Below, piece after piece: positions 30,724 to 45,270 of a stretch of 47,693 nucleotides of DNA; the first letter of the stretch is position 1, and each line of letters begins with the position of its first letter. The notes under the pieces are model-generated. The model was given only the letters and a program-made list of their open reading frames with translations, made no database searches and was not told the DNA's origin. This DNA is from Beijerinckiaceae bacterium (GTDB taxonomy: Bacteria > Pseudomonadota > Alphaproteobacteria > Rhizobiales > Beijerinckiaceae), in NCBI GenBank assembly GCA_025459195.1, contig JALORF010000003.1, positions 1-47,693 on the forward strand. The letters are read 5' to 3'. The position numbers and the translations under genes are program-made.

Positions 30724-31623
30724 ATGCGTATCGACGTTCTTGGTTTGCAGGCCTTTGTCAGCATTGCCGAACGCGGCAGTTTCCATGGTGCCGCCACACA
30801 CCTGAACCTGTCGCAGACAGCGCTCAGTCATCGTATCCGCAAGCTGGAGGATTCGCTTGCGACGACATTGTTTGAAAGGACGACACGGCAAGTCATGCTG
30901 ACGCCGGCGGGCGCAGCCTTGCTGCCACGCGCGACGAAGATATTCGCCGATCTGGGTGAAGCGATCAGCGAAGTGCGTGGAACCAGCACATCCGTTCAGG
31001 AGCCCATCGTTCTTGGATGTCTGCCCACGATTGCCATGCAGGTCCTGCCGCGGGCCATGCAGGAATTCAAGGCCGACCACCCTGATGTGATGGTGAAGGT
31101 CCATGACAGTTCCGCCACGGAGATCGCAGCGCGCGTTCTGGCCGGAGAGGCTGAATTCGGCGTCACCGTTGCCACTGCCGGGCGTTGGGACCTTGACATG
31201 GTCGCCATTGCCAAGGAGCCATTTGTGCTGGTCTGCCATCGCTCGCTCCCGGCGGCTGCGCACCCTGTGCTGACCTGGGCACAGCTTCAGGACATGCCGC
31301 TGGTCAGGATCAGCGCGGAAACCGGCAACCGCATCCTGATCGACGATGCCCTTGGAGCACGGCGTGAGACGATGCGCTGGCAATACGAGGTGCAGCGCGT
31401 CACGTCTGCCGTCAGCCTTGTCCGGTCGGGGATTGGCGCGGCGATCGTGCCGCAATTGGCGTTCGATGTCATCGAAGCCGATGATATTGTCGCCATCCCG
31501 CTGCGCTCGCCGGCCGTGTCGCGCACGCTTGTCCTGGTCACACGCAAGGGTGCGCCGCTGCGCCAGGCCACCAGCGCCCTGCTCAAGCTGCTGACCGCGC
31601 ATCTGAAGGCGCGCTTCGGCTGA
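30724..31623 (+). CDS. LysR family transcriptional regulator
   Basis: A 299-residue LTTR. The N-terminal winged helix-turn-helix (LQAFVSIAERGSFHGAATHLNLSQ, residues 7-65) is followed by a two-lobed effector domain (about 92-295), with IVLGCLPTIAMQVLPRAMQEF and SLVRSGIGAAIVP. It lies directly upstream of, and in the same direction as, the oxalomesaconate-pathway operon, with 119 bases between that contain an inverted repeat. Galactose-style naming is misleading; gallate and protocatechuate operons often carry LysR regulators. It likely activates that operon in response to a pathway compound. Confidence 0.88.
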   Translation: MRIDVLGLQAFVSIAERGSFHGAATHLNLSQTALSHRIRKLEDSLATTLFERTTRQVMLTPAGAALLPRATKIFADLGEAISEVRGTSTSVQEPIVLGCLPTIAMQVLPRAMQEFKADHPDVMVKVHDSSATEIAARVLAGEAEFGVTVATAGRWDLDMVAIAKEPFVLVCHRSLPAAAHPVLTWAQLQDMPLVRISAETGNRILIDDALGARRETMRWQYEVQRVTSAVSLVRSGIGAAIVPQLAFDVIEADDIVAIPLRSPAVSRTLVLVTRKGAPLRQATSALLKLLTAHLKARFG

Positions 31624-31742: not shown

Positions 31743-32576
31743 ATGTCGCATCTCAATGCCCGGCATATCGCCTTCATCGGCTTCGGCGAAGTCGGCCAGA
31801 CCTTTGCGCGCGCATTGCTGTCCAGGCCCGACGTGATCGTGGCCGCTCATGACAGGTTCTTTGGTAAGCCGGCCGGGATGCGCCTGATGGAGCAGGCACA
31901 AGCGTTGGGTGTCGCGGTCTGTGCCTCGGCGCCTCTTGCTGCGCGGGAGGCAGGCATCGTCATCAGCGCGGTGACAGCGTCGGAAGCGGAAGGTGTCGCG
32001 CGTGAGGCTGGCCGCTATCTGCGGGCAGGGCAGATCTTCCTCGATGTCAACTCGGCCGCGCCAGCCACCAAGCAGCGGGCGGCTTTGCATGTCGAAGCGG
32101 CTGGCGCGCACTATGTCGAGGCAGCCGTGATGGCGCCCGTCCTGAAGCCTGGGCTTGCAGTGCCCATCCTCGCGGGAGGGCCGCATGCGGCCGAGGCATC
32201 TGTTTTGCTCAACGCGCTCGGCATGAACATCACGCCCGTTGCTGAGGCGTATGGCGTCGCCTCCGCCATCAAACTGTGCCGCAGCATCATGATCAAGGGC
32301 ATCGAGGCATTGATGCTCGACTGCGCGACGGCGTCTGCCCGTTGGGGCGTCACGCAGGATGTTTTCGACAGTCTGACCCGGACTTTCCCCTCAATCGATT
32401 TCCACAGCCTCGCGCGCGACATGACAGAACGCGTCGCCACCCATGGTGTCCGCCGCGCAGCAGAGATGCTGGAAGCCGGCGAAATGCTGGGTGCGCTGGG
32501 CCTTGATCCTGACCTCGCCAATGCCGTGGCTGCGGCACAACTGCGCGGAGCGCGCATCTCGCAAAGGACACCTTGA
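31743..32576 (+). CDS. DUF1932 NAD(P)-dependent dehydrogenase (6PGDH-like)
   Basis: A 277-residue protein with an N-terminal Rossmann motif (IAFIGFGEVGQTFARAL), the DVNSAAPATKQ segment and a helical C-terminal DUF1932 domain (KLCRSIMIKGIEALMLD, with the catalytic-type Lys). The fold is that of beta-hydroxyacid dehydrogenases, which oxidise hydroxy acids or reduce the matching oxo acids with NAD(P). It starts the operon. Its natural substrate is unknown; position suggests a hydroxylated or aldol-type acid near the oxalomesaconate steps. It is not of the Gfo/Idh/MocA type used by LigC. Confidence 0.85.
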   Translation: MSHLNARHIAFIGFGEVGQTFARALLSRPDVIVAAHDRFFGKPAGMRLMEQAQALGVAVCASAPLAAREAGIVISAVTASEAEGVAREAGRYLRAGQIFLDVNSAAPATKQRAALHVEAAGAHYVEAAVMAPVLKPGLAVPILAGGPHAAEASVLLNALGMNITPVAEAYGVASAIKLCRSIMIKGIEALMLDCATASARWGVTQDVFDSLTRTFPSIDFHSLARDMTERVATHGVRRAAEMLEAGEMLGALGLDPDLANAVAAAQLRGARISQRTP

Positions 32577-32578
32577 GC

Positions 32579-33571
32579 ATGACACGGTTCCCCACCCGTC
32601 GCGCGGTGTGCGCAGGGCTGTTTGCCTCCTCCGCCGTCGCGGCCCCTGCCATCACGAGGGCACAGGGCGCATGGCCCACGCAAGTCATCCGCCTCGTCGT
32701 GCCGTTCACGCCGGGCGGCAGCACCGATCTGCTGGCAAGGCTGCTTGCTGATCGGCTGTCGCGCAGCATCGAAGGGCGTGGCTTCGTGATCGAGAACCGG
32801 GCCGGGGCCGGCGGCTCCATTGCGGCGGGGCAAGTGGCCCGCGCCGATGCCGACGGGCACACGCTGATGATGGGCCACATCGGCACGCTCGCCTTCAACC
32901 CGTCGCTCTACGCCAATCTGAGCTATGATCCGGTGCGTGATTTCCAGCCGGTGGCGCTGGTTGCGTCAGTGCCCAACATCCTCGCCATCAACCCGAAGGT
33001 GCCGGCCCGGAACGTGGCGGAATTCATAGCCTATGCAAAGGCCAACCCGGGCGTGCTCAACTATGCGTCCGGTGGATTGGGCAGCGCGGCGCACATTGCC
33101 GGCGCCTATCTTTGCAGCAAGGGCGGGTTTCAGGCCACGCATGTGCCCTACCGGGGCACGGCACCCGCAGTGAACGACCTTGTTTCGGGAGCGGTCCAGT
33201 TCACGCTGACGGGCGGTCCTGCGCTGCTGCCTCTTGCGGCAGGCGGCCAGTTGCGCGCCCTCGGCGTGGCCAGCACGGCTCGCGTGCCGTTTGCACCCAA
33301 CCTGCCCACCATTGCGGAAAGCGGGTTGCCGGGTTTCGAAGCGGTGCAGTGGTATGGCATCGTGGCTCCCGCCCGGACGCCGGCAGCAATCGTTGACCGG
33401 CTCAACCGCGAGATCAATGCGCTGCTGGAAACGCCGGACTTCAAGGCAACCCTCGACAAGGATGGAGCGATTGCGCTCAAGGGCACGCCGGACGATTTCA
33501 GCCGGCTGATCGCCAGTGAAATCACGCTCTGGCGCGACATCATCCGCCAGTCCGGCATCACGGCGGGCTGA
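32579..33571 (+). CDS. TctC/Bug-type tripartite tricarboxylate binding protein
   Basis: This exported binding protein (330 residues) has a leader with paired Arg (PTRRAVCAGLFASSAVAAP) and TctC signature segments VIRLVVPFTPGGSTDLLAR, VENRAGAGG-like IENRAGAGGSIAA, HVPYRGTAPAVNDLVSG and AVQWYGIVAPARTP. These proteins bind carboxylic or aromatic acids. No TctA or TctB membrane gene accompanies it, so it is an orphan, common in Bug-rich bacteria. The ORF-track start is TTG 32573; I prefer ATG 32579, which has AAAGGA at suitable spacing. A similar orphan is known near pmd genes of Comamonas. Confidence 0.88.
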   Translation: MTRFPTRRAVCAGLFASSAVAAPAITRAQGAWPTQVIRLVVPFTPGGSTDLLARLLADRLSRSIEGRGFVIENRAGAGGSIAAGQVARADADGHTLMMGHIGTLAFNPSLYANLSYDPVRDFQPVALVASVPNILAINPKVPARNVAEFIAYAKANPGVLNYASGGLGSAAHIAGAYLCSKGGFQATHVPYRGTAPAVNDLVSGAVQFTLTGGPALLPLAAGGQLRALGVASTARVPFAPNLPTIAESGLPGFEAVQWYGIVAPARTPAAIVDRLNREINALLETPDFKATLDKDGAIALKGTPDDFSRLIASEITLWRDIIRQSGITAG

Positions 33572-33573
33572 GG

Positions 33574-34686
33574 ATGTCCGATACCGCCATTCGCTGCATG
33601 CTGATCCGCGGCGGCACCTCGAAAGGCGTCTATCTGCTTGCCGAGGATTTGCCATCCGACCCTGCTGCGCGGGATGCCTTGCTGCTGGCGCTGATGGGCT
33701 CGCCCGACCGGCGGCAGATCGATGGGCTCGGCGGCGGGCATCCGCTGACCAGCAAGGTGGCCATCGTCTCGCGCTCGGTCCTGCCCGGCTGCGACATCGA
33801 CTTCCTGTTTGCACAGATCGGTATCGACTGCGGCACCGTCGATACGACACCCAATTGCGGCAACATCCTCGCAGGCATCGGCCCCTTTGCCCTGGCACGA
33901 GGGCTCGTCAAAGCAACTGGCGCGCAGACCACCATCCGCGTCCGCACGCTCAACACCGGCACCATTGCCGACCTCACACTCGAGACGCCCGATGGTCAGG
34001 CTGCAACGGACGGACAGACCAGGATTGATGGCGTTCCAGGCACAGCGGCGCCGATCAGGATCGCCTTTCTGGACACCGAAGGGTCGGTTTGCGGGGCCTT
34101 GCTGCCGACCGGACGCATCGTGGATGTGGTGGACGGTGTTCCCTGCACCCTGATCGACAACGGCATGCCCGTGATCGTTCTGCGTGCAAGCGACGTCGGC
34201 CGCACCGGCCATGAGCCGCATGATGTGCTTGACCGGGACAGCGCCCTGAAGGCGCGCCTGGAGGCGATACGCCTCGCCGCCGGGCCGCTGATGAACCTTG
34301 GTGACGTTGCAGGCAAGGCGATCCCCAAGATCGCGTTGGTGGCCGAGCCCCGCGCCGGTGGCAACATCGGCACGCGCAGCTTCATTCCCCATGCCTGCCA
34401 CGCCGCCATCGGCGTGTTTGCAGCCGTGTCGGTCGCGACAGCCGCCGTGCTGCCCGGCTCGCCCGCAGCAGCAGTCGCGCGGATCGGCCAGGGCCGCAAC
34501 CGCACGATCTCCGTCGAGCATCCGAGCGGTGAATTCTCGGTGGCGCTGACGATCGGCGGCACCGCAGCCGATCCCGTGGTCGAACGGGCCGGTCTCGTGC
34601 GCACCGCACGCATTGTGATGGATGGAACCGCCTTCGTGCCCACGAGCCGGCTCGCCTTGCCGGCTCTGGCCGAAGCCATGACCTGA
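33574..34686 (+). CDS. galD: 4-oxalomesaconate tautomerase-like protein (GalD/PmdU/PrpF family)
   Basis: The 370-residue protein starts with the family signature MLIRGGTSKGVYLLAEDLP and has GLGGGHPLTSKVAIV, NCGNILAGIGPFAL and the C-terminal PSGEFSVAL. PrpF-type isomerases shift a double bond in tricarboxylate substrates; the GalD/LigU/PmdU members convert keto and enol or double-bond isomers of 4-oxalomesaconate. The GalB- and GalC-like genes directly downstream strongly support this branch over the PrpF methylaconitate role. The gap to the preceding gene is 2 bases. The symbol follows the Pseudomonas gallate genes and is by similarity. Confidence 0.85.
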   Translation: MSDTAIRCMLIRGGTSKGVYLLAEDLPSDPAARDALLLALMGSPDRRQIDGLGGGHPLTSKVAIVSRSVLPGCDIDFLFAQIGIDCGTVDTTPNCGNILAGIGPFALARGLVKATGAQTTIRVRTLNTGTIADLTLETPDGQAATDGQTRIDGVPGTAAPIRIAFLDTEGSVCGALLPTGRIVDVVDGVPCTLIDNGMPVIVLRASDVGRTGHEPHDVLDRDSALKARLEAIRLAAGPLMNLGDVAGKAIPKIALVAEPRAGGNIGTRSFIPHACHAAIGVFAAVSVATAAVLPGSPAAAVARIGQGRNRTISVEHPSGEFSVALTIGGTAADPVVERAGLVRTARIVMDGTAFVPTSRLALPALAEAMT

Positions 34687-34700
34687 ATGAAGGACAACCG

Positions 34701-35423
34701 ATGCCCAGCGACAAGACAGGCCTCGTCATCACCGCCCATCCGGGCGACTTCGTCTGGAGGGCAGGGGGTGCCATCGCCCTGCACGCCAGCCGTGGCATGC
34801 GCGTCGTCATCCTGTGCCTCTCTTATGGCGAGCGCGGCGAGAGCCAGTTTGCCTGGAAGCAGCCTGGCGTGACGATGGCGGACGTGAAGGCGCAGCGCCG
34901 CGACGAGGCCGAACGCGCGGCAGCCATCCTCGGTGCCGAGATCGAGTTCATGGATGCGGGCGATTATCCGCTGCGCACCACCGACGCGATGCTGGACCGG
35001 GCCATCGACATCTTTCATGCCATCAACCCGTCCTTCGTGCTGAGCCACAGCCTCGAAGACCCCTACAATGTCGATCATCCCGAGGCGACGCGGTTTGCCC
35101 AGACGGCGCGCATCATCGCCCAGGCGGCGGGCCACAAGCCTGATCCGGCGCGCAGCTATGCCGCGCCACCGATGTTCCTGTTCGAGCCCCACCAGCCCGA
35201 ACAGTGCGGCTTCAAGCCCAATGTGATCCTCAACATCGATGATGTCTGGGAAACCAAGCGCAAGGCCTTCGAGGTGCTGGGCGCCCAAAAGCACCTGTGG
35301 GAATACTACACCCGCGTGGCGCTGAACCGCGGCGTTCAGGGCGGGCGCAATTCCGGTCGCGCCATGACCTATGGCGAGGCCTACCAGCGGCTGTTCCCCG
35401 AAGCGCTGGAGAGCCTGGCATGA
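34701..35423 (+). CDS. galB: 4-oxalomesaconate hydratase-like protein (GalB, PIG-L family)
   Basis: A 240-residue protein of the PIG-L/LmbE deacetylase fold with [31 protein letters not shown] and the Zn-type segment [16 protein letters not shown]. GalB hydrates 4-oxalomesaconate to 4-carboxy-4-hydroxy-2-oxoadipate (CHA); it is unrelated to LigJ, which does the same step elsewhere. The usual deacetylase AHPDD is AHPGD here, as expected of a member that does not deacetylate. AAGGA lies before ATG 34701. The stop overlaps the GalC-like start (ATGA), so the two enzymes are coupled. Confidence 0.88.
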
Positions 35424-36112
35424 CCCCGGTCGTCATTCGCGACAAGCGGCGCGCCGCCAGCGCTGACATGGCCACGCTCGGGCGGCTCGGCGTGTCCACC
35501 AGCCACGAAGCCATGGGGCGCAGCGGGCTGATGAAACCCTACATGCGCCCGATCTGGCCGGGCGCACAGATCGCCGGCGGGGCTGTCACCGTGCTGGCCC
35601 AGCCCGGTGACAACTGGATGCTGCATGTTGCCATCGAGCAGGTGCAACCGGGTGATGTGCTGGTGGTGGCCTGCACCGCCGACAACACCGACGGCATGTT
35701 CGGCGATCTGCTTGCCACCTCGCTGATGGCGCGCGGCGGTATCGGGCTGGTGATCGACGCCGGCGTGCGTGACGTGAAGACGCTGACCGCAATGGGATTT
35801 CCGGTCTGGTCGCGGGCGATCTCGGCCAAGGGCACGATCAAGGCCACACTCGGTTCGGTCAACGTGCCGGTGGTGTGCGCCGGCGCGCTGGTCCATCCGG
35901 GCGACGTGATCGTGGCCGATGATGACGGCGTTTGCGTTGTGCCGCGCCGCGCTGCGGCGGCTGTCGCGGCGACCGGCTCCGCGCGGGAGGCGAACGAAGA
36001 GGCCAAGCGCGCCAGGCTCGCCTCGGGAGAGCTTGGCCTCGACATGTACGCCATGCGCGAAGGCCTCGCCCGGGCGGGGCTGACCTATCACGATGCGCCG
36101 GAGAGCGACTGA
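35420..36112 (+). CDS. galC: 4-carboxy-4-hydroxy-2-oxoadipate aldolase / oxaloacetate decarboxylase-like (GalC/LigK/ProA)
   Basis: A 230-residue RraA-family class II aldolase, the length of LigK and ProA enzymes. It has [21 protein letters not shown], the metal/substrate segment [19 protein letters not shown], the Arg-Asp pair [10 protein letters not shown] and [17 protein letters not shown]. It splits CHA into pyruvate and oxaloacetate and decarboxylates oxaloacetate, feeding central metabolism. ATG 35420 overlaps the GalB stop, so the ORF-track start at 35297 is rejected. The C-terminal helix ([21 protein letters not shown]) is typical of the family. Confidence 0.92.
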
Positions 36113-36178
36113 AGGAGCACCCCGGCCTCAACCAACCACCGATGCCAGACCAACAAAAAGCAACAGAGGGAGAATGAC

Positions 36179-37219
36179 ATGATCAATCGTCGCCATTTCG
36201 CCGCCAGCCTGATCGCCATGCCCGCCGTCCTGCGCGCCACGCGCGCCGGAGCGCAGGAGGTCTCGATGCGCCTGCATCACTTCATGGGAGGGGTCTCGCC
36301 AGGACACCGCGAGTTCCTCGTTCCGTGGTCGAAAAAGGTGGAGGCTGAATCGGGCGGCCGCATCAAGATCGATGTCTTTCCCTCGATGCAGCTTGGCGGC
36401 GCACCGCCCCAGCTTTTCGACCAGGCACGCGATGGGGTCGTCGATCTTGTCTGGACGTTGCCGGGCTACACGGCCAACCGCTTCCCGCTGAGCGAGGTGT
36501 TCGAGCTGCCATTCGTTGCGGCAAAGCGGGCGATGAGCAATTCGCGAGCCCTTCAGGAATTTTCGCAGAAGCACCTTGCGCAGGAGTTCCGGGAGATCCA
36601 CCCGATCTGCTTCTGGGCGCATGATGGCGGCCTGATCCATGCCAATCGCCCCGTCACCAAACTGGAGGACATGAAGGGTCTGAAACTGCGCTTTCCAACC
36701 CGCCTTGCCGGCGAAGGCCTGCGTGCGCTCGGCGCAACGGCTGTGGGCATGCCGGTGCCACAGGTGCCCGAAGCGATTGCCCAACGCATCATTGACGGGG
36801 CGGTCATCCCCTGGGAGATCGTGCCCTCGATCAAGGTCCACGAGCTGGTCAAGAACCACACCGGCTTTCCCGGCACTCCGACCTTCTACACATCGACATT
36901 CGTGCTGGGCATGAACAAGGCGCGCTATGAGGGGCTGGCGCCGGAGCTGAAACGCGTCATCGATGCCAACTCAGGTCAGGTCGCGACCGCCATGGTCGCC
37001 GCCATGTTCGACAATGTCGCGCCGAAGGTGGCCGATCTGGCGACCAAGCGCGGCAACAAGGTCGTGGAACTTGCCAGCGACGAGGTCCAGCGCTGGCAGA
37101 AGGCGTGCGAGCCCGTCACGGCAGGCTGGCTCAAGGCGATGCGCGACAAGGGCATCAACGGCGACAATCTGCTGGCCGATGCCAAGGCCCTGATTTCCAA
37201 GTACGACGCAGCCGCCTGA
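36179..37219 (+). CDS. TRAP transporter substrate-binding protein (DctP family)
   Basis: A 346-residue exported TRAP receptor with leader INRRHFAASLIAMPAVLRATRAGA. The DctP core has LVPWSKKVEAESGGRIKIDVFPSMQLGG, the DLVWTLPGYTANRFPLSEVFELPF region and KLRFPTR with the Arg that binds a carboxylate. The substrate is therefore an organic or aromatic acid. GAGGGAG precedes the ATG; the dctQ start is one base after its stop. Confidence 0.92.
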   Translation: MINRRHFAASLIAMPAVLRATRAGAQEVSMRLHHFMGGVSPGHREFLVPWSKKVEAESGGRIKIDVFPSMQLGGAPPQLFDQARDGVVDLVWTLPGYTANRFPLSEVFELPFVAAKRAMSNSRALQEFSQKHLAQEFREIHPICFWAHDGGLIHANRPVTKLEDMKGLKLRFPTRLAGEGLRALGATAVGMPVPQVPEAIAQRIIDGAVIPWEIVPSIKVHELVKNHTGFPGTPTFYTSTFVLGMNKARYEGLAPELKRVIDANSGQVATAMVAAMFDNVAPKVADLATKRGNKVVELASDEVQRWQKACEPVTAGWLKAMRDKGINGDNLLADAKALISKYDAAA

Positions 37220-37220
37220 C

Positions 37221-37727
37221 ATGAACCCGCAGACCCCTCGGGAGGATGTCAATGCCGGGCCGGTGCTGGGCGGCATTGCCCGCACACTTGCGCTCATGGG
37301 TGGCGGGCTTTTGCTCGCCATCGCCGGGTTTGTCACCACAAGCGTGATGATGCGCTGGCTGCTGGGGGAGGGCATCGAGGGCGATTTCGAGTTCGTGCAG
37401 ACCGCCGCTGCCGTGGTCGCCTTCTGCTGTTTTCCGCTGTGCATTGCCGTGCGCGGGAACATCGCGGTGGATACGTTCAGCAGCGGGCTGCCGGAGCGCT
37501 GGCGCAATCGTCTCGATGCTGCGTGGGACCTGTTGTTTGCTGCGATCTGTATCGTGCTGGCATGGCGCCTGGCCCTGGGTGCGCTCGATCAACTGCGCAG
37601 CGGGACCACGCTGATGATCAGCGGGCTCAACATCTGGTGGGCAATCGGCATCTGCGCTGCCTTGCTGGCCGTTCTGGCAGCCACCGCGCTGGTCGTGGGG
37701 CTTCGCCTTGTGCGGAGGCCGACATGA
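37221..37727 (+). CDS. TRAP transporter small permease (DctQ family)
   Basis: A 168-residue protein with four hydrophobic helices and the family segment MMRWLLGEGIEGDFEFVQ, whose acidic residue is conserved. It is the small membrane subunit linking the receptor and the large permease. Its stop overlaps the dctM start (ATGA). Confidence 0.9.
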   Translation: MNPQTPREDVNAGPVLGGIARTLALMGGGLLLAIAGFVTTSVMMRWLLGEGIEGDFEFVQTAAAVVAFCCFPLCIAVRGNIAVDTFSSGLPERWRNRLDAAWDLLFAAICIVLAWRLALGALDQLRSGTTLMISGLNIWWAIGICAALLAVLAATALVVGLRLVRRPT

Positions 37728-39043
37728 GTGGCAATGCGGCGGCGCTGGCAGGCTTTGGCGTGATGATCGGCCTGATGATGCTGCGCATGCCGATCGGCAT
37801 GGCGATGCTTGTCGTTGGCCTCGGCGGCTATGTCTCGATGTCGAGCCTGCCGAACCTGCTCAACTACATGAAGACCACGCCCTATTTCCTGTTCGCGAAC
37901 TACACGCTGACGGTCATCCCGCTCTTCATCCTGATGGGCGCGCTGGCCGAGCGTTCCGGCATTGCGCGCGATCTGTTCAAGGCGGCGAGCGCTTGCCTCG
38001 GTCACAGGCGCGGCGGGCTGGCCATGGCTGTCATTGGAGCCTGCACAGGCTTTGGTGCCATCTGCGGCTCGTCCGTCGCGACAACAGCCACGTTCGGCCG
38101 CTCCGCGCTGCCCGAATTGTTGCGCTATGGCTATGCCGGCTCGCTGGCCACCGGAACCATTGCTGCCGGCGGCACGCTCGGCATCCTCATCCCACCCTCG
38201 GTTGTGCTCGTCGTCTATGCCATCTCCACAGAGCAGAACATCCTGAAACTGTTTCAGGCTGCCCTCGTGCCGGGCCTGATGGCGACCGCCTTCTACCTCA
38301 TCACGATTGCCATCGTCGTGCACCGCAACCCGGACCTCGCGCCCCTGCAACCACGCCAGCCCTGGGCTGCGCGCTGGCCGGCCCTGCTGGCGATCTGGCC
38401 AACCATCGCCGTGGCCGGACTTGTGCTTGGCGGCATCTATGGCGGCATCTTCACACCCACCGAGGGTGCCTCGGTGGGTGCCGTCGCCATGCTGCTCGTT
38501 GGCCTTGGTGCGCGCAAGCTGGACTGGAAAGGGGTCGCGGGCAGTCTTCGCGTCACAGCGGAGACCACTGCGATGATCCTGCTGATCCTGCTCGGCGGCG
38601 AGGTTTTCAATGCGTTCCTGGCGCTGACCCAGATGCCGACCGCTCTGGCCGAATGGATCGGGGGTCTGGGCCTGTCACCCCTGTTCGTGCTGGCGCTGCT
38701 TCTGGCGACCTACATCGTGCTTGGAGCGGTGATGGACGAACTGGCCATGATCATCCTGACATTGCCGATCTTCTTTCCCGTGGTGCAGGCGCTCGATTTC
38801 GGTCTTGGCCCGGATGAGGTGGCGATCTGGTTCGGCATCCTCGTGCTCATCGTGGTCGGCATCGGGCTGACTGCGCCCCCCATCGGCCTCAACGTCTTCG
38901 TGGTCTCGGCCATTGCGCGGACCATTCCCATCACCGCCACCTATCGCGGCGTGCTGCCTTATGTGCTGTCCGATGCGATCCGGCTGGGGCTCGTGTTTGC
39001 TTTCCCGACGCTTGCCCTCGGTCTGGTGCGGTGGCTGCAATGA
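37724..39043 (+). CDS. TRAP transporter large permease (DctM family)
   Basis: A 439-residue permease with about twelve hydrophobic helices, including the conserved IPLFILMGALAERSGIARDLF, GFGAICGSSVATTATFGR and GTLGILIPPSVVLVVYAI stretches. It uses the sodium gradient to import the bound acid. ATG 37724 overlaps dctQ; the ORF-track extension is frame read-through in dctQ. With the two preceding genes it makes a complete TRAP system in the catabolic operon. Confidence 0.93.
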   Translation: MSGNAAALAGFGVMIGLMMLRMPIGMAMLVVGLGGYVSMSSLPNLLNYMKTTPYFLFANYTLTVIPLFILMGALAERSGIARDLFKAASACLGHRRGGLAMAVIGACTGFGAICGSSVATTATFGRSALPELLRYGYAGSLATGTIAAGGTLGILIPPSVVLVVYAISTEQNILKLFQAALVPGLMATAFYLITIAIVVHRNPDLAPLQPRQPWAARWPALLAIWPTIAVAGLVLGGIYGGIFTPTEGASVGAVAMLLVGLGARKLDWKGVAGSLRVTAETTAMILLILLGGEVFNAFLALTQMPTALAEWIGGLGLSPLFVLALLLATYIVLGAVMDELAMIILTLPIFFPVVQALDFGLGPDEVAIWFGILVLIVVGIGLTAPPIGLNVFVVSAIARTIPITATYRGVLPYVLSDAIRLGLVFAFPTLALGLVRWLQ

Positions 39044-39073
39044 ACCTGACCCCACGCCCGCAAGGACCGCAAG

Positions 39074-40024
39074 ATGATCCCTGAACCATGCTTCGACATC
39101 GCTCATCTGGCGCATGTGGAGTTGTTGACCAACAAGCCCGAAGCGAGCCTCGACTTCTTCGTCAATGTCCTTGGTCTCACCGAAAGCGGCCGCGATGGCG
39201 GCTCGGTCTATCTCAGGGCCTATGACGATTACGAGTTCCACACGCTGAAACTGACGGCCTCGCACACCACCGGCGTGGGGCATGTCGGCTATCGCGCAAG
39301 CAGCGAGGCAGGACTGATGCGCCGTGTTGCTGCCATCGAGGCGATGGGGGCGGGCCTGGGCTGGACCGATGGCGACCTCGGCCATGGCAAGGCCTTCCGC
39401 TTCCATGATCCCGATGGCCACATCTTCGAGATCTACTTCGAAACCGTGAAATACGCGGCGCCTGAAGCGGAACGGCCCGCCCTCAAGAACCAGGCGCAGC
39501 GCTTCCACGGGCGCGGATGCGGCGTGCGCCGCCTCGATCATCTCAACCTGTTGGCGCAGGATGTTGATGCGATCCGCGCCTTCATGCCGCGCGCGCTGGG
39601 AAGCAGGGTGACCGAGCAGATCGTGCTCGACAGCGGCGAGGTCGGCGGTTGCTGGTTCACCGTCAACAACAAGAGCTATGACATCGCCTACACGCGCGAC
39701 AAGACGACTGCACGGGGCCGCTTCCACCATATGACCTATGCGGTGGACCAGCGCGAGCAGGTGCTGCAGGCGGCGGATGTCTTTCTCGAACACGGCGTGC
39801 ATATCGAGACCGGCCCGCACAAGCACGCCGTGCAGCAGACCTTCTTCCTGTATGTCTATGAGCCGGCCGGCAACCGGATCGAGATCGCCAATGCAGGTGC
39901 GCGCCTCATTCTCGATCCCGATTGGCAGACCGTGACCTGGACCGAAACGGAGCGCAAGAAAGGTCAGGCCTGGGGTCTGAAGACCATCGACAGCTTCCAC
40001 ACCCACGGAACGCCGCCAGAATAG
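39074..40024 (+). CDS. Type I extradiol ring-cleavage dioxygenase (catechol 2,3-dioxygenase-like, VOC superfamily)
   Basis: The 316-residue protein has two VOC modules: residues 5-125 (HLAHVELLTNKPEASLDFFV) and 150-275. The iron-ligand set of extradiol enzymes is visible in the C-terminal module: H156 in RLDHLNLL, H218/H219 in FHHMTYAV and E270 in GNRIEI, with spacing close to catechol 2,3-dioxygenase (153/214/265). So it probably opens a catecholic ring next to the diol with Fe(II) and oxygen. It lies 30 bases after dctM as the last gene of the operon with GalD-, GalB- and GalC-like enzymes. The substrate is not evident; a carboxylated catechol, trihydroxybenzoate or related acid would fit the transporter and the lower pathway. 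Confidence 0.88.
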   Translation: MIPEPCFDIAHLAHVELLTNKPEASLDFFVNVLGLTESGRDGGSVYLRAYDDYEFHTLKLTASHTTGVGHVGYRASSEAGLMRRVAAIEAMGAGLGWTDGDLGHGKAFRFHDPDGHIFEIYFETVKYAAPEAERPALKNQAQRFHGRGCGVRRLDHLNLLAQDVDAIRAFMPRALGSRVTEQIVLDSGEVGGCWFTVNNKSYDIAYTRDKTTARGRFHHMTYAVDQREQVLQAADVFLEHGVHIETGPHKHAVQQTFFLYVYEPAGNRIEIANAGARLILDPDWQTVTWTETERKKGQAWGLKTIDSFHTHGTPPE

Positions 40025-40177: not shown

Positions 40178-40867
40178 TCATCCGGCGCGGGTTGCGGCCC
40201 CGGCGCTGTCCAGCGCTGCGCGCGCATCGCGGGCGGTTCCGAATTGCGGCAGGTCGGGTCGCCCGCCAGCATGCACGAAGCTGAGCGCATCGCGGATGAA
40301 GGCGATCTGCGCGGTTTCTTCGATGATCTCGGCGAGGTATTGCGCCTCCATCATCGTCTTGCCGACGCCGATCGTGCCATGATTGGCCAGAACCGCCGCC
40401 CGGATCGCCGGATCCCGAAACACCGGGCTGATCTCGACCTCGGTCTGCGGCCCGCCATTGCTTGAGAGCGGGATCAGCGGCATGCGGCCGATCTTCTCGA
40501 TGGTCTGCACGGTGAGGCAGGGAATCTCGAGCCCCGCGCTGGCATAGCCGGTGGCCCAGGGGCTGTGGCAATGCACGATGGCGTGGATGTCGGGCCGGAT
40601 TCGATAAAGATCGAGATGGAAATCGAGGTCCTTGGAAGGCTTGAACGGGGACGGCTCCAGCCGTCCGTCGAGATGCACCACCTGCAGGTTGTCGCGGGAG
40701 CATTCGTTGAAGCCGATGCCGGACGGCTTGATCAGAATGGCGCTCCCGCCCCCCAACCGTAGCGAGAGGTTGCCGCCCGCGTTGGTCTGAAGCCTCAGAT
40801 CGAAGCAGCGCCGCGCCGCCCAGATCAGCGTGTCCTTGCGGCTTTCGATGTCCAGTGGATCGAGCAT
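40178..40867 (-). CDS. Class II aldolase/adducin-family protein
   Basis: A 229-residue protein with TNAGGNLSLRLG, IKPSGIGF, the metal-binding HCHSPWATGY and LANHGTIGVG, the order found in fuculose-phosphate aldolases, ribulose-phosphate epimerases and related zinc enzymes. These split or rearrange sugar phosphates or decarboxylate 3-oxo acids. It is the last gene of the minus-strand operon, 17 bases after the Tm-1-like gene, with AGGAAA before the ATG. Together they may process the compound imported by the upstream ABC system. Confidence 0.87.
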   Translation of the reverse strand: MLDPLDIESRKDTLIWAARRCFDLRLQTNAGGNLSLRLGGGSAILIKPSGIGFNECSRDNLQVVHLDGRLEPSPFKPSKDLDFHLDLYRIRPDIHAIVHCHSPWATGYASAGLEIPCLTVQTIEKIGRMPLIPLSSNGGPQTEVEISPVFRDPAIRAAVLANHGTIGVGKTMMEAQYLAEIIEETAQIAFIRDALSFVHAGGRPDLPQFGTARDARAALDSAGAATRAG

Positions 40868-40884
40868 GGCGGGTTTCCTGTGGC

Positions 40885-42039
40885 TCAGAGATTGAAGGCG
40901 GCGAGTTCAGCCAGCGCGCTGGCGGCCGTGGCCGGGTGATTGATGTGGCTGTCGAGCACCTTGAGGCTGATGCCGGGGCGCAGGCTGGCCTGCATCGCCT
41001 CCAGAAAGACGCGCCGCAGCGCCTCATCCTCGATGGCCCCGCCGGGTGCGTCCTGATGCGAAAAGCCGCCCATCGGCACGAGCACCGCGACCGGGGCTGC
41101 GGCGGGCATGAGCGCGGCTGCAAGGGCACGGGCCAGAGCCGCCATCTCGTCATGCGTCACTTTCACATGGGTGAAATGGCCGGAATGGGCATAGTGCGGG
41201 CGCCCAAGCAGATCGGCGGGCACATCGCGCAAGGCACCGAGCCCGATGAAATTCAGCGCGCCCGGCAGCAGCAGCACCGGCATGGCCCGCGCGACCGCAA
41301 TGCTGAAGCGCTCCGGCATGGCGACATGCGCGCCGCCGAGCATGAGGCGCGTGAGCTCATGCGGGGTTGCATCCACCAACGCGCGAAAACGCCCCTCGCT
41401 GGCCATGCGGACATAGGCAGCCCCACCATAGCCGTTGGCGTGGAACAGGGTGGGTTCATGCCCTGCATCGCGCAGGCCGGCGGCGATGCCATCCGCCACC
41501 CCTTGCGTCGCGCCCAGCGCGGTGAGCGCCACCCCGGTCGATGACGCGACCGGGCGCTCGGCCCCGGCCTCGGCGACCAGCGCTGCAACCATGGCCGCCG
41601 CCCGGCCAAGCGTCTGGCGCAGGGCGTGGTTGAGCCCGGCAATGTCCGCCAGCGTCGGCACGAGGATGATGCCGGCACTGGCCAGGGCGGGGCGCGGATC
41701 GAAGGGCAGGGTGGTGACCATCACCTGCGGCAGGTCCATCGGCTGGTTCTGCATCAGCGCCAGGGCCATCTCGCCGCCTGTGCCGCCGCCAAGGCCGATG
41801 ACGGCTGCTGCGCCGCCCGCCACCAGCGCCGCCAGATCGCCGGTCGCCCGCGTCGTCACCTGCGCCATCCCGGCCAGCTTGCGCTCGCCTTGCCAGACCG
41901 CCCCTTCGGCACCAAGGCTGATGTCGACCAGCGCCACGCCAAGGCCGCACCGCTCCAGCGCGCGTGCCAGAAAGGCGGCCTCAGCGGCTTTGGTGTCCAG
42001 CGTGGCGATCAGCGCCACGACGGGCCGGACAGGCTGCAC
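40885..42039 (-). CDS. Tm-1-like ATP-binding domain protein (UPF0261)
   Basis: A 384-residue UPF0261 protein, related to the N-terminal part of the tomato Tm-1 virus-resistance protein. The N-terminal nucleotide-binding-like half has IATLDTKAAEAAFLAR and AAVIGLGGGTGGEMAL, and the C-terminal half has GALNFIGLG, HSGHFTHVKVTHDEM and LDSHINHPA. The partner TIM-barrel domain often fused or adjacent in this family is absent. The GTG start at 42039 lies 3 bases from the permease stop. Bacterial function is unknown; the operon suggests a catabolic enzyme. Confidence 0.88.
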   Translation of the reverse strand: MQPVRPVVALIATLDTKAAEAAFLARALERCGLGVALVDISLGAEGAVWQGERKLAGMAQVTTRATGDLAALVAGGAAAVIGLGGGTGGEMALALMQNQPMDLPQVMVTTLPFDPRPALASAGIILVPTLADIAGLNHALRQTLGRAAAMVAALVAEAGAERPVASSTGVALTALGATQGVADGIAAGLRDAGHEPTLFHANGYGGAAYVRMASEGRFRALVDATPHELTRLMLGGAHVAMPERFSIAVARAMPVLLLPGALNFIGLGALRDVPADLLGRPHYAHSGHFTHVKVTHDEMAALARALAAALMPAAAPVAVLVPMGGFSHQDAPGGAIEDEALRRVFLEAMQASLRPGISLKVLDSHINHPATAASALAELAAFNL

Positions 42040-42042
42040 CTG

Positions 42043-42909
42043 TCAGCCCTTGACCGCGCCAGCGGTCATGCCGGTGATGATCTGGCGTGAGGCGACGAAG
42101 GTGAACAGGATCGGCGGCACGGCCAGCAGCATGCCAGTGGCCATGATCACACCCCAGTCGATGTTGTATTCGGTCAGGCTGTTGACAATGGTGACAGGCA
42201 CCGTGCGCGTGTTGCGGTCCGACAGGGCGTTGGCCAGCAGGAACTCGTTCCAGCCGATGCGGAAGGTGAAGATGGCCGCCGCCGCCAGGCCGGGTTTGAC
42301 CAGCGGCAGCACCACAAGGAAGAAGACCTGGAACGGGCCGGCACCATCCATCCGCGCCGCTTCCTCAAGCTGAACCGGCACCTGCACGATGAAGCTCTGC
42401 AGGATCCAGATCACGAAGGGCAGGTTCATCGCGACATAGATCAGGATGATGCCGGTGCGTGTGCCGCTGATGCCGAACTGGAAGGTCCAGATGCCGAACA
42501 CCGGCACCAGCAGCACGGCAGGCGGCACCATGCGCATCAGCAGCGTCGAGAGCGAAACCGTGTCGCGTCCCATGAAACGGAAGCGCACCAGCGCATAGGC
42601 GGCCATGCAGCCGATCACCAGCGTCAGCGCGGTCGAAACAAGACAGATCACCAGCGAGTTGACCAGCGCCCGCCCGAAGGTGGGGTCGCAGGAGGCAAGG
42701 CCCGCCGGCTCATACCAGAGCAGATCGCACAGGGCCGTCTCGTAGTTGCGCAGCGTCGGCATGAAGATCAGGCCGCCCACATCCGACATGATGTCGACGT
42801 TGAGCTTCAGCGATGTGGCCAGCATCAGCAGGATCGGCCCGACCGCCATGATGACCAGCGCCACCAGCAGGGCGTAGAAGGCCGGGCTCTGCTTCTCGGT
42901 CTGGGTCAC
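42043..42909 (-). CDS. ABC transporter permease, carbohydrate type (MalG-like)
   Basis: A 288-residue permease with six helices and the EAA loop LEEAARMDGAGPFQVFFLVVLP. GTG 42909 overlaps the partner permease stop (GTGA). The periplasmic loop is longer than in the MalG-like protein at 19793, with a Cys pair region (ALCDLLWYEPAGLASC). Confidence 0.9.
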   Translation of the reverse strand: MTQTEKQSPAFYALLVALVIMAVGPILLMLATSLKLNVDIMSDVGGLIFMPTLRNYETALCDLLWYEPAGLASCDPTFGRALVNSLVICLVSTALTLVIGCMAAYALVRFRFMGRDTVSLSTLLMRMVPPAVLLVPVFGIWTFQFGISGTRTGIILIYVAMNLPFVIWILQSFIVQVPVQLEEAARMDGAGPFQVFFLVVLPLVKPGLAAAAIFTFRIGWNEFLLANALSDRNTRTVPVTIVNSLTEYNIDWGVIMATGMLLAVPPILFTFVASRQIITGMTAGAVKG

Positions 42910-43823
42910 GTTGCGGGCTCCTGAGCGGCGGCCAGGCGGCGGCTGCGCGCTTCACTGGCCTTGGTGTAGAGGAACATGGCAAGCGTCAACGCCATGAGCA
43001 CCAGCAACAGGATGTTGGACATGGCCGCAGCCTCGCCGAGCGCCCGGAACTCGGATGCCGTGCGGTTGATGCGCAGCGACAGGATCTCGGTCGACAGCCC
43101 CGGCCCGCCATTGGTCATCACCAGAATGACCTCCAGCACCTTGAAGGCGTCGATCAGCCTGAGCAGCATCGTGACAATCAGCACCGGCAGCATCAGGGGC
43201 AGCTTGATGTAGAGGATGGCCTGCCAGCCGCGCGCGCCATCGATGCGTGCCGCTTCCAGCGCCGATTTCGGCAGCGATTGCAGCGCCGCCAGCGACAGGA
43301 TGAAGATGAACGGCGTCCATTGCCAGACATCGGCGATGATGACGGCGGCAAAGGCCCAGGAACTGTCCGACAGCCAGGGCACAGGCTCCAGCCCGAGCGA
43401 GTTTAGCGTCCGGTTGAAGATGCCGATGGTGGGATGATACATGTAGCGCCACATCAGGCCCACGACGATCGGCGCAATCATCATCGGCAGGATGAAGACA
43501 GTGCGCAGCACCGTCAGCCCCTTCATGTTGCGGTCGAGCAAGAGCGCGAGGCCGACCCCGAGCACCATCTCCACCGATACCACGATCGCCGCAAAGGCGA
43601 GCGTGACGCGCAGGCTTTCGAGGAAGGCGGCGTCGGACAGGAGCTTGGCATAGTTCCTGAGCCCCACGAAGCTGGCTTCGCCGATGCGCTGGCTCGGGTT
43701 CCAGTCCAGGAAGCTGGCATAGATCACGTAGATGATCGGATAGACCAGCGCGCCAAGCAGGATCACCAGCGCCGGCGCCAGGAACAGGTAAGGGGTCAGC
43801 CGGTTGGCCGTCGCGACACTCAC
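42906..43823 (-). CDS. ABC transporter permease, carbohydrate type (MalF-like)
   Basis: A 305-residue permease with six helices and the EAA loop LEAARIDGARGWQAILYIKLP. It starts with GTG 43823, about 90 bases after the binding-protein gene, and overlaps the second permease. It forms the import channel with it. Confidence 0.9.
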   Translation of the reverse strand: MSVATANRLTPYLFLAPALVILLGALVYPIIYVIYASFLDWNPSQRIGEASFVGLRNYAKLLSDAAFLESLRVTLAFAAIVVSVEMVLGVGLALLLDRNMKGLTVLRTVFILPMMIAPIVVGLMWRYMYHPTIGIFNRTLNSLGLEPVPWLSDSSWAFAAVIIADVWQWTPFIFILSLAALQSLPKSALEAARIDGARGWQAILYIKLPLMLPVLIVTMLLRLIDAFKVLEVILVMTNGGPGLSTEILSLRINRTASEFRALGEAAAMSNILLLVLMALTLAMFLYTKASEARSRRLAAAQEPAT

Positions 43824-43911
43824 TCTTGGCCTTTCGGGGGCAGCGACGCGGCGAGCATGACCAGCGCGCCGCGTCCAGGTTTCATCAACGGTCCGGGCCT
43901 TGCGTCAGGCC

Positions 43912-45270
43912 TTACTTGCGCCAGGTGTAGTAGCCGGCGGCCTGCATTTCGGCACGGGTCCGCGTGGCGACACCATCGAGGCTGGCCTTGATGTCGGCAT
44001 TCTCTGTCAGCACCTTGGACAGGGTGGTGCCGAGATCGGCGTTGATCTTGCCCCATGGCGGGATGATCGGCCGCCAGTCCGGATCGGCATCCTTGAGCGC
44101 TTCGCCGAAGGCTGCGGAATAGGGGAACTTGGCATTCAAGGCCGCGTTGGCATGGGTCGAGAAGCGCGACGGGTTGCCGCCTTCCAGCGCGATCTTGAGG
44201 TCGGCCTCCTTCGAGGTCAGCCACTGCATCAGCAGGAAGGCCGCTTCCTTGTTCTTGGCGTTCTTGGGGATGGCGATGCCGAACCCGCCCGTCTGCGAAC
44301 CGCGCCGGACACCGGCAGGATGCTTCACCCAGCCGACCTTGCCGACAACCTTGCTGTTGGCGGGGTTTTCGAAGCCGGCCGCATAGACCGTGCTGTCCAG
44401 GAACATGGCCGACGTGCCTTGCGCGAACGAGGCGGCCGCTTCGGCCGGACCGAACACCTGCGAGCCCTTCACGCCGCAATCGATCATGGTCTTCAGCGCC
44501 CTGGCGGCAGCAACGCCCTGCTCGTTGTTGACGATCGGATTCCACTGGTCATCGAAGATGCGCCCGCCAAGCGGGGCCAGATGCAGCAGGAAGGCATGCG
44601 CCGCATGGTGGCCGGAGGCCGCGCGCATGGCAACGCCCCCCATGCCCGGTTCAAGCTGCGGGATCTTGCAGGCCAGATCGAGGAACTCGGTATAGGTCTG
44701 CGGCGGGGTCAGCTTGTGCTTCTCGAAGATGTCCTTGCGATAGAACAGGACCGAGGTTTCAGCGCCGAAAGGGACCCCGAACAGCGAGCCGGTGGGGCCG
44801 GGCAGATAGCCCTTCTTGCCGCCCGCCACGCCGATGTTCTGGACGTAGCCGTCGATCAGGTCCTCCGCATCGTAGGCCGGATCCGCGAGCTTCGGGTTCA
44901 TGAAGTAGCGCGCCAGGTTCTCGAGCTGGTCGGCAAACACATAGTCCGCCTTCGAGAACACGACATAGGAGATCAGGTCATAATCACCGCGCGCCTTGGT
45001 CAGCTCCAGTGTCTGCTTCTCGCGCATCTTGAGGAATTCAAGCTGGTCGACCTCGACCTGGATGCCGGTCTGCCGCGTGAACTCCGGCAGCACCTTGCGC
45101 ACGGCGGTGTAATGCGGGTGCGCCGGGAAGTTCACCACCAGCCGTGTGCCCGCATAAGGCTTGTAGGCGGCTTCCGACGCCATGGCCGGGCCCGCGCCAG
45201 CCGCCATGCCGGCTGTGGCGAGCGCGCTCGCCAACAGGGCAGCCTTCACACTGAAACGTCTCAAATCCAT
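43912..45270 (-). CDS. ABC transporter substrate-binding protein, carbohydrate type
   Basis: A 452-residue exported binding protein with a signal peptide (FSVKAALLASALATAGMAAG, cleavage near AMAS). Family-1 segments include VVNFPAHPHYTAVRKVLPEF, QTGIQVEVDQLEFLK, GVPFGAETSVLFYRKDIF and FGIAIPKNAKNKEAAFLLMQWL. GGGAGGAT precedes the ATG. It belongs with the two permeases downstream and the ATPase upstream, making a complete importer. Confidence 0.92.
   Translation of the reverse strand: MDLRRFSVKAALLASALATAGMAAGAGPAMASEAAYKPYAGTRLVVNFPAHPHYTAVRKVLPEFTRQTGIQVEVDQLEFLKMREKQTLELTKARGDYDLISYVVFSKADYVFADQLENLARYFMNPKLADPAYDAEDLIDGYVQNIGVAGGKKGYLPGPTGSLFGVPFGAETSVLFYRKDIFEKHKLTPPQTYTEFLDLACKIPQLEPGMGGVAMRAASGHHAAHAFLLHLAPLGGRIFDDQWNPIVNNEQGVAAARALKTMIDCGVKGSQVFGPAEAAASFAQGTSAMFLDSTVYAAGFENPANSKVVGKVGWVKHPAGVRRGSQTGGFGIAIPKNAKNKEAAFLLMQWLTSKEADLKIALEGGNPSRFSTHANAALNAKFPYSAAFGEALKDADPDWRPIIPPWGKINADLGTTLSKVLTENADIKASLDGVATRTRAEMQAAGYYTWRK

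Follow-up and report, generated by a model that had tools for sequence, protein, structure and literature searches.

A candidate gallate utilization operon with a type I (VOC) extradiol dioxygenase in a member of the Beijerinckiaceae

A nine-gene operon of the oxalomesaconate branch

The stretch of DNA considered here (hereafter the window) comprises 47,693 nucleotides of contig JALORF010000003.1 from the genome assembly of a Beijerinckiaceae bacterium (GCA_025459195.1). It carries an operon whose products are predicted to degrade an aromatic acid by way of 4-oxalomesaconate (OMA). Nine genes lie on the forward strand between positions 31743 and 40024 (Table 1), all with ATG start codons and nearly abutting, with intergenic distances of 2, 2, 14, -4, 66, 1, -4, and 30 bp in order. 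For the gene encoding the TctC-type protein, the ATG at 32579 is better placed than the TTG at 32573. The existence, extent, and content of this operon (GalD, GalB, GalC, a DUF1932 dehydrogenase, TctC, a full TRAP importer, and an extradiol dioxygenase) had been proposed in a first-pass annotation made from the sequence alone. Profile searches identify all nine genes, structure matches agree, and the coordinates stand exactly as first given.

GalD (tautomerase), GalB (hydratase), and GalC (aldolase) make up the lower OMA branch, and profile or structure matches place each protein in its family. The solved structures matched are an OMA isomerase for GalD (6p3j) and a 4-oxalomesaconate hydratase for GalB (5cgz). 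The usual ring-cleavage genes are missing from the operon, as had been observed earlier, since no LigB-type dioxygenase, LigC, or LigI is encoded there.

Table 1. Genes of the oxalomesaconate operon and its putative regulator (positions in the window)
Product	Position	Strand	Supporting matches
LysR-family regulator	30724..31623	+	PF00126/PF03466; related LysR genes adjoin VOC/gal genes in many relatives
DUF1932 NAD(P)-dependent dehydrogenase	31743..32576	+	PF09130, PF03446 (NAD_binding_2)
TctC-type periplasmic binding protein, membrane partners not in operon	32579..33571	+	PF03401
GalD, 4-oxalomesaconate tautomerase	33574..34686	+	NF033377, 500 bits (cutoff 440); 6p3j, 421 bits
GalB, PIG-L-fold 4-oxalomesaconate hydratase	34701..35423	+	PF02585; 5cgz, 279 bits
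GalC, 4-carboxy-4-hydroxy-2-oxoadipate aldolase	35420..36112	+	TIGR02798, 364 (cutoff 304.5); NF006731, 376 (cutoff 179)
DctP, TRAP importer binding protein	36179..37219	+	PF03480, NF037995
DctQ, TRAP small membrane subunit	37221..37727	+	PF04290
DctM, TRAP large membrane subunit	37724..39043	+	PF06808
VOC (type I) two-domain extradiol dioxygenase, proposed gallate dioxygenase	39074..40024	+	TIGR03211, 322.6 (cutoff 320.2); PDB relatives

Known entry enzymes are absent from the genome

Dioxygenases acting on gallate, 3-O-methylgallate, and protocatechuate (4,5-cleavage) are assigned to the type II group, the LigB superfamily, and the substrates given for type I enzymes are catechol, dihydroxybiphenyl, homoprotocatechuate, 2,3-dihydroxybenzoate, and similar compounds (PMC4250580, PMC3962378). 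Cleavage of gallate yields 4-carboxy-2-hydroxymuconate/OMA directly, whereas protocatechuate reaches OMA through LigC and LigI (PMC6888825, PMC12314914). Cleavage of 3-O-methylgallate gives either 4-carboxy-2-hydroxy-6-methoxy-6-oxohexa-2,4-dienoate (CHMOD) or 2-pyrone-4,6-dicarboxylate (PDC) (PMC6888825, PMC12314914).

The first-pass annotation had suggested that homologs of LigAB or GalA, LigC, and LigI be sought elsewhere in the source genome (3.2 Mb in 253 contigs, 96.7% complete), and all of these searches were negative. The genome has no match to the LigB-superfamily domain (PF02900), and hence no member of the GalA/DesB family, no LigI homolog at E<=1e-20, and no LigC homolog at E<=1e-40. 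The protocatechuate 4,5-cleavage set of LigAB, LigC, and LigI is therefore missing, and no LigM-class demethylase rises above background. Two adjacent PF00775 genes are present, which is the arrangement of protocatechuate 3,4-dioxygenase subunits. Three congeners, each 100% complete (G011, G052, and G132), carry the VOC gene and GalD with no LigB protein at all and likewise lack LigC. Thus, draft incompleteness is not the cause of the missing LigB protein. Similarly, 17 of the 23 genomes of the family that carry both VOC and GalD have no LigB protein of the LigAB/GalA class.

A type I dioxygenase with a substituted active site

The VOC protein scores marginally above the cutoff of the catechol 2,3-dioxygenase equivalog profile (Table 1), and two of its orthologs fall below it (296.8 and 301.6). 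Most members of its family carry the label catechol 2,3-dioxygenase or "VOC family protein." The predicted structure (pLDDT 80.9) aligns with AphC (3lm4/7q2a) at template modeling scores of 0.86-0.88 and also matches LapB, XylE, and homoprotocatechuate 2,3-dioxygenase (HPCD). With these enzymes it shares the two-domain VOC fold and the 2-His-1-Glu site, whose ligands H156, H219, and E270 are invariant among 130 homologs. Two of these ligands had been named at the outset and the third had been left as H218 or H219, of which H219 is the ligand and H218 a neighboring conserved histidine. N158, W194, H251, and Y260 are also invariant, and H251 and Y260 correspond to the second-sphere histidine and tyrosine of type I enzymes.

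Unlike the aligned type I enzymes, however, the VOC protein has no second-sphere acid-base histidine (His194/195 in BphC). The position of HPCD His200 is held by Y202, and tyrosine occurs there in 128 of the 130 homologs; the only two with histidine, L129 and L156, are the most distant of the set. Tyrosine is also present in PDB entry 9wgj, whereas 3lm4, HPCD, and 3hpv align with histidine. No solved structure is closer in sequence than 9wgj (375.8 bits), which its depositors named "Catechol 1,2-dioxygenase" and on which no publication was found in the open-access literature. In a tree with long outgroup branches, the clade of the window's protein (88 rows, support 96/96) stands beside 9wgj and apart from AphC and HPCD. 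Also, R243 and R293 of HPCD, which we take to be its carboxylate-binding residues, are replaced by T246 and G297, which argues against homoprotocatechuate as the substrate.

The second-sphere histidine is reported to be indispensable in BphC (PMC6880040) and nearly essential to turnover in HPCD (PMC10760822), where His200 together with Tyr257 and His248 has been calculated to favor extradiol over intradiol cleavage (PMC6308299). The symmetry of gallate makes the C3-C4 and C4-C5 cuts equivalent, and since either one counts as intradiol and extradiol at once, a single product results. Loss of the histidine may be tolerable for this reason, either because selection for it is relaxed on gallate or because the tyrosine meets the third hydroxyl. 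The enzyme may even act as an intradiol dioxygenase on simple catechols. Given that TIGR03211 accepts a protein without the catalytic histidine, the automatic annotation of the whole clade is probably wrong.

The dioxygenase gene travels with genes of the OMA branch

A scan of GTDB genomes with the VOC protein gave 416 relatives, and the best 80 of these are nearly all from named or classified Alphaproteobacteria. Relatives are also found on 86 plasmids. Among 399 genomes sampled from the phylum, a close relative occurs in 21, all but one of them in the window's own class. Gene neighbors were counted at 64 genome loci with more than 5 kb of flanking sequence on each side, and an OMA gene was counted when it lay no more than about 9 kb away. 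The VOC gene has one or several of GalB, GalC, GalD, and LigJ nearby at 51 of these loci, and at least two of GalB, GalC, and GalD at 47. Across 149 genomes of the family, VOC and GalD are associated with an odds ratio of 12.9 (P = 4e-9, without correction for phylogeny).

Gene order and transporter type (TRAP, branched-chain-type ATP-binding cassette [ABC], TctC, or MFS) vary freely among these loci. Beside the VOC gene in Methylobacterium and several other genomes is LigJ (631 bits to 2gwg), an OMA hydratase unrelated to GalB. Because the gene is linked both to GalB and to this unrelated hydratase, the link is to the metabolite and not to one gene family. The alternation between GalB (PIG-L fold) and LigJ (amidohydrolase) can be followed through L074, L035, L133, L134, and L135. 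The comparison across genomes that the first-pass annotation had recommended thus reveals a pairing conserved in Alphaproteobacteria, and by these comparisons the VOC-gal module is widespread and not a single occurrence. This pairing and the absence of known entry genes lend support to the earlier suggestion of a different entry to the branch, in which the VOC enzyme would cleave a carboxylated catechol or a trihydroxybenzoate. The substrate is very probably one of those that feed the OMA branch, namely gallate, 3-O-methylgallate, or protocatechuate.

A dioxygenase that cleaves some other catechol (catechol itself, pyrogallol, 2,3-dihydroxybenzoate, or a substituted catechol) and shares only its regulation with the OMA genes would fit the near-threshold profile score, the alkylcatechol enzymes that are its nearest characterized relatives, and the existence of stand-alone copies. 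Such an arrangement would not be expected to recur with GalB, GalC, GalD, and LigJ in lineages of differing gene order. Furthermore, the operon encodes neither the semialdehyde dehydrogenase nor the hydrolase of a catechol meta pathway, and two orthologs miss the catechol cutoff, making this explanation highly improbable.

The DUF1932 dehydrogenase and protocatechuate

The first gene of the operon gives a reason to consider protocatechuate. If the VOC enzyme cut the 4,5 bond of protocatechuate, then the DUF1932 protein, an NAD(P) dehydrogenase, could stand in for LigC and another hydrolase for LigI, forming a non-homologous meta-cleavage route. Within the family, 28 of 34 DUF1932 homologs lie within 12 kb of VOC, GalD, LigI, LigC, or LigB-type genes. 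DUF1932 adjoins LigI in five genomes, and one locus (L106) unites VOC, GalB, GalC, GalD, DUF1932, and LigI. LigM, which occurs next to the VOC gene at some loci, also yields protocatechuate.

Several facts speak against this route. The operon offers no lactonase candidate and the source genome has no LigI, whereas it does hold the 3,4-dioxygenase-like gene pair for protocatechuate. DUF1932 also occurs near LigC itself (G040, G118, and G138), so it is not simply a LigC replacement, and it is present at only one of the nine loci that carry both VOC and LigI. We therefore regard protocatechuate as an unlikely substrate.

The idea that DUF1932 serves as a VOC-specific replacement for LigC is weakened by loci lacking VOC at which it adjoins LigC and LigI. 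A role in making gallate from dehydroshikimate was also considered and dropped, as clusters of the protocatechuate type contain DUF1932 as well, and no shikimate or quinate genes were noticed in its vicinity. Judging from these neighborhoods, DUF1932 probably acts on a metabolite of the PDC/OMA branch. Nothing relevant to it was found in the open-access literature. Loci with DUF1932 near LigI, LigC, or GalD and no VOC nearby include G119:C21:9481, G028:C40:78659, G007:C68:14387, G067:C160:4265, G096:C5:6255, G138:C137:3712, G118:C116:3131, and G040:C21:23772.

LigI, LigM, and 3-O-methylgallate

LigI (302 bits to the solved PDC hydrolase) stands beside VOC at nine distinct loci, including those with the Bradyrhizobium-like order LigI-TctC-GalB-GalC-NMT1-like-VOC. 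LigC was found at none of the VOC loci examined for neighbors. Because these LigI loci have no LigC and mostly no DUF1932, 3-O-methylgallate or gallate might be the source of PDC there, with no dehydrogenase required. The step from 3-O-methylgallate to PDC is known in Sphingobium SYK-6 (PMC6888825). A dehydrogenase could be encoded elsewhere in those genomes, so the argument is circumstantial. The Bradyrhizobium-like arrangement (L159, L160, L165, and L167) has neither GalD nor DUF1932 nearby, and the NMT1-like protein encoded there could function in decarboxylation or in binding.

LigM lies beside VOC at 14 loci, and a representative scores 724 bits against a cutoff of 580 for the vanillate/3-O-methylgallate demethylase. 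On the pAt plasmid of walnut Agrobacterium strains, a PF07519 tannase/feruloyl esterase gene (438 bits) comes immediately after the cluster LysR-DUF1932-ABC importer / GalB-VOC-GalC-GalD. We count both neighbors for gallate, as enzymes that would act upstream and supply trihydroxybenzoates. At Bosea loci (L038-L054 and others), the gene immediately upstream of VOC, flanked on its other side by ABC importer genes, encodes a MetE-like methyltransferase of the NF005085 family, and a link to methoxylated aromatics is possible.

The LigM and LigI neighbors could also be explained by a DesZ-like 3-O-methylgallate dioxygenase, whose product would become PDC or be de-esterified to OMA, with gallate cleaved less well or not at all. 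These two genes would then be natural companions, and a second ring-cleaving substrate would explain the two relatives that hold both LigAB and VOC (L118 and L119). The source genome, however, has neither LigI nor a LigM-class demethylase above background, and its operon contains no candidate for a CHMOD esterase. For this operon, 3-O-methylgallate as the principal substrate seems quite unlikely.

Gallate as the probable substrate

With LigC and LigI both missing from the window, gallate is the one substrate of the three for which enzymes leading all the way to pyruvate and oxaloacetate can be named. Its cleavage product is already at the oxidation level of the acid, so that LigC (a semialdehyde dehydrogenase) and LigI (a lactonase) would both be dispensable. 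Given the absence of LigB, LigC, and LigI and the presence of a protocatechuate 3,4-dioxygenase-like pair, only a substrate that goes straight to OMA completes the module. We consider it probable that the operon is a gallate (3,4,5-trihydroxybenzoate) utilization module in which the VOC dioxygenase takes the role of GalA/DesB. In the proposed pathway, the TRAP system would import the acid and the VOC enzyme would cut the ring between two hydroxylated carbons, producing OMA directly. GalD would then tautomerize OMA, GalB would hydrate it, and GalC would split the product to pyruvate and oxaloacetate.

The proposed module resembles the galTAPR/galBCD genes of Pseudomonas putida KT2440 and the DesB system of Sphingobium SYK-6 in having GalD, GalB, GalC, and a LysR regulator (PMC12314914, PMC9942251, PMC6888825), and in the proposed direct cleavage of gallate to OMA. 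It differs in that the dioxygenases of those organisms belong to the LigB superfamily, and from KT2440 also in its transport genes, a TRAP importer and TctC taking the place of GalT and GalP, with DUF1932 as an extra. Protocatechuate 4,5-cleavage (LigAB, LigC, LigI, LigU, LigJ, and LigK, or the pmd operon) likewise uses a tautomerase, a hydratase, and an aldolase after OMA, but its earlier enzymes are those not found in the source genome. In contrast to the type I enzymes named above, this one is linked to the OMA branch and not to semialdehyde meta pathways. The operon would then work like a gal pathway with a dioxygenase from outside GalA/DesB, a type I variant minus one defining residue.

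A number of observations weigh against gallate. LigAB lies within the VOC cluster of L118 and L119, no OMA genes are nearby at 13 of the 64 well-flanked loci, and the VOC copies on Enterobacterales plasmids likewise lack OMA genes in their surroundings. A route for gallate alone would offer DUF1932 no role. Of the neighbors counted for gallate, LigM can also produce protocatechuate, and the PF07519 family covers feruloyl esterases as well. The nearest relatives of known activity use catechols that bear no carboxylate on the ring (7q2a, AphC with 4-ethylcatechol), and the source genome is a draft in 253 contigs. The presence of both dioxygenases in L118 and L119 may mean that substrates are divided between VOC and LigAB. 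A strong LigB gene is near 2 of 20 VOC-linked GalD genes, and the exclusion between VOC and LigB is not significant (Fisher P = 0.69), since the majority of the remaining GalD genes lie near neither. Genomes with VOC and with LigC coincide in one case only, which is also not significant (P = 0.19).

A description of a type I or VOC gallate dioxygenase was not found in the open-access literature, where the gallate dioxygenases described are all LigB-type. The fuller proposal, in which these proteins form a previously undescribed family of VOC gallate dioxygenases, widespread in Alphaproteobacteria, with tyrosine for the catalytic histidine and a loss tolerated through the symmetry of gallate, is offered tentatively, with a chance we place slightly short of even.

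Regulation and flanking genes

The same-strand LysR gene ends 119 bp upstream of the operon, and by analogy with GalR its product is probably an activator that would respond to the substrate or to OMA. Downstream, genes for a class II aldolase and a UPF0261 (Tm-1-like) protein occupy 40178-42039 on the reverse strand, convergent with the VOC gene. They adjoin a sugar-type ABC transporter (42043-45270) and apparently form a separate unit. In L118 and L119, LigAB and an alpha/beta hydrolase gene adjoin the VOC cluster (L118:5639-7549 and L119:14515-16434). In L119, a single 355-aa frame apparently encodes the hydrolase joined to LigA, and VanAB-like genes lie next to it.

Implications

If gallate is the substrate, a large number of Alphaproteobacteria from soil, plant, and marine habitats would degrade gallate from tannins and syringyl lignin by means of an enzyme annotated as a catechol dioxygenase, and gallate and syringate catabolism would have been overlooked in their genomes for that reason. 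The operon would also represent a non-homologous replacement of a central step in lignin and tannin degradation. The fixed change from histidine to tyrosine provides a natural test of the role that the second-sphere histidine plays in type I extradiol dioxygenases and of the determinants of intradiol versus extradiol cleavage.

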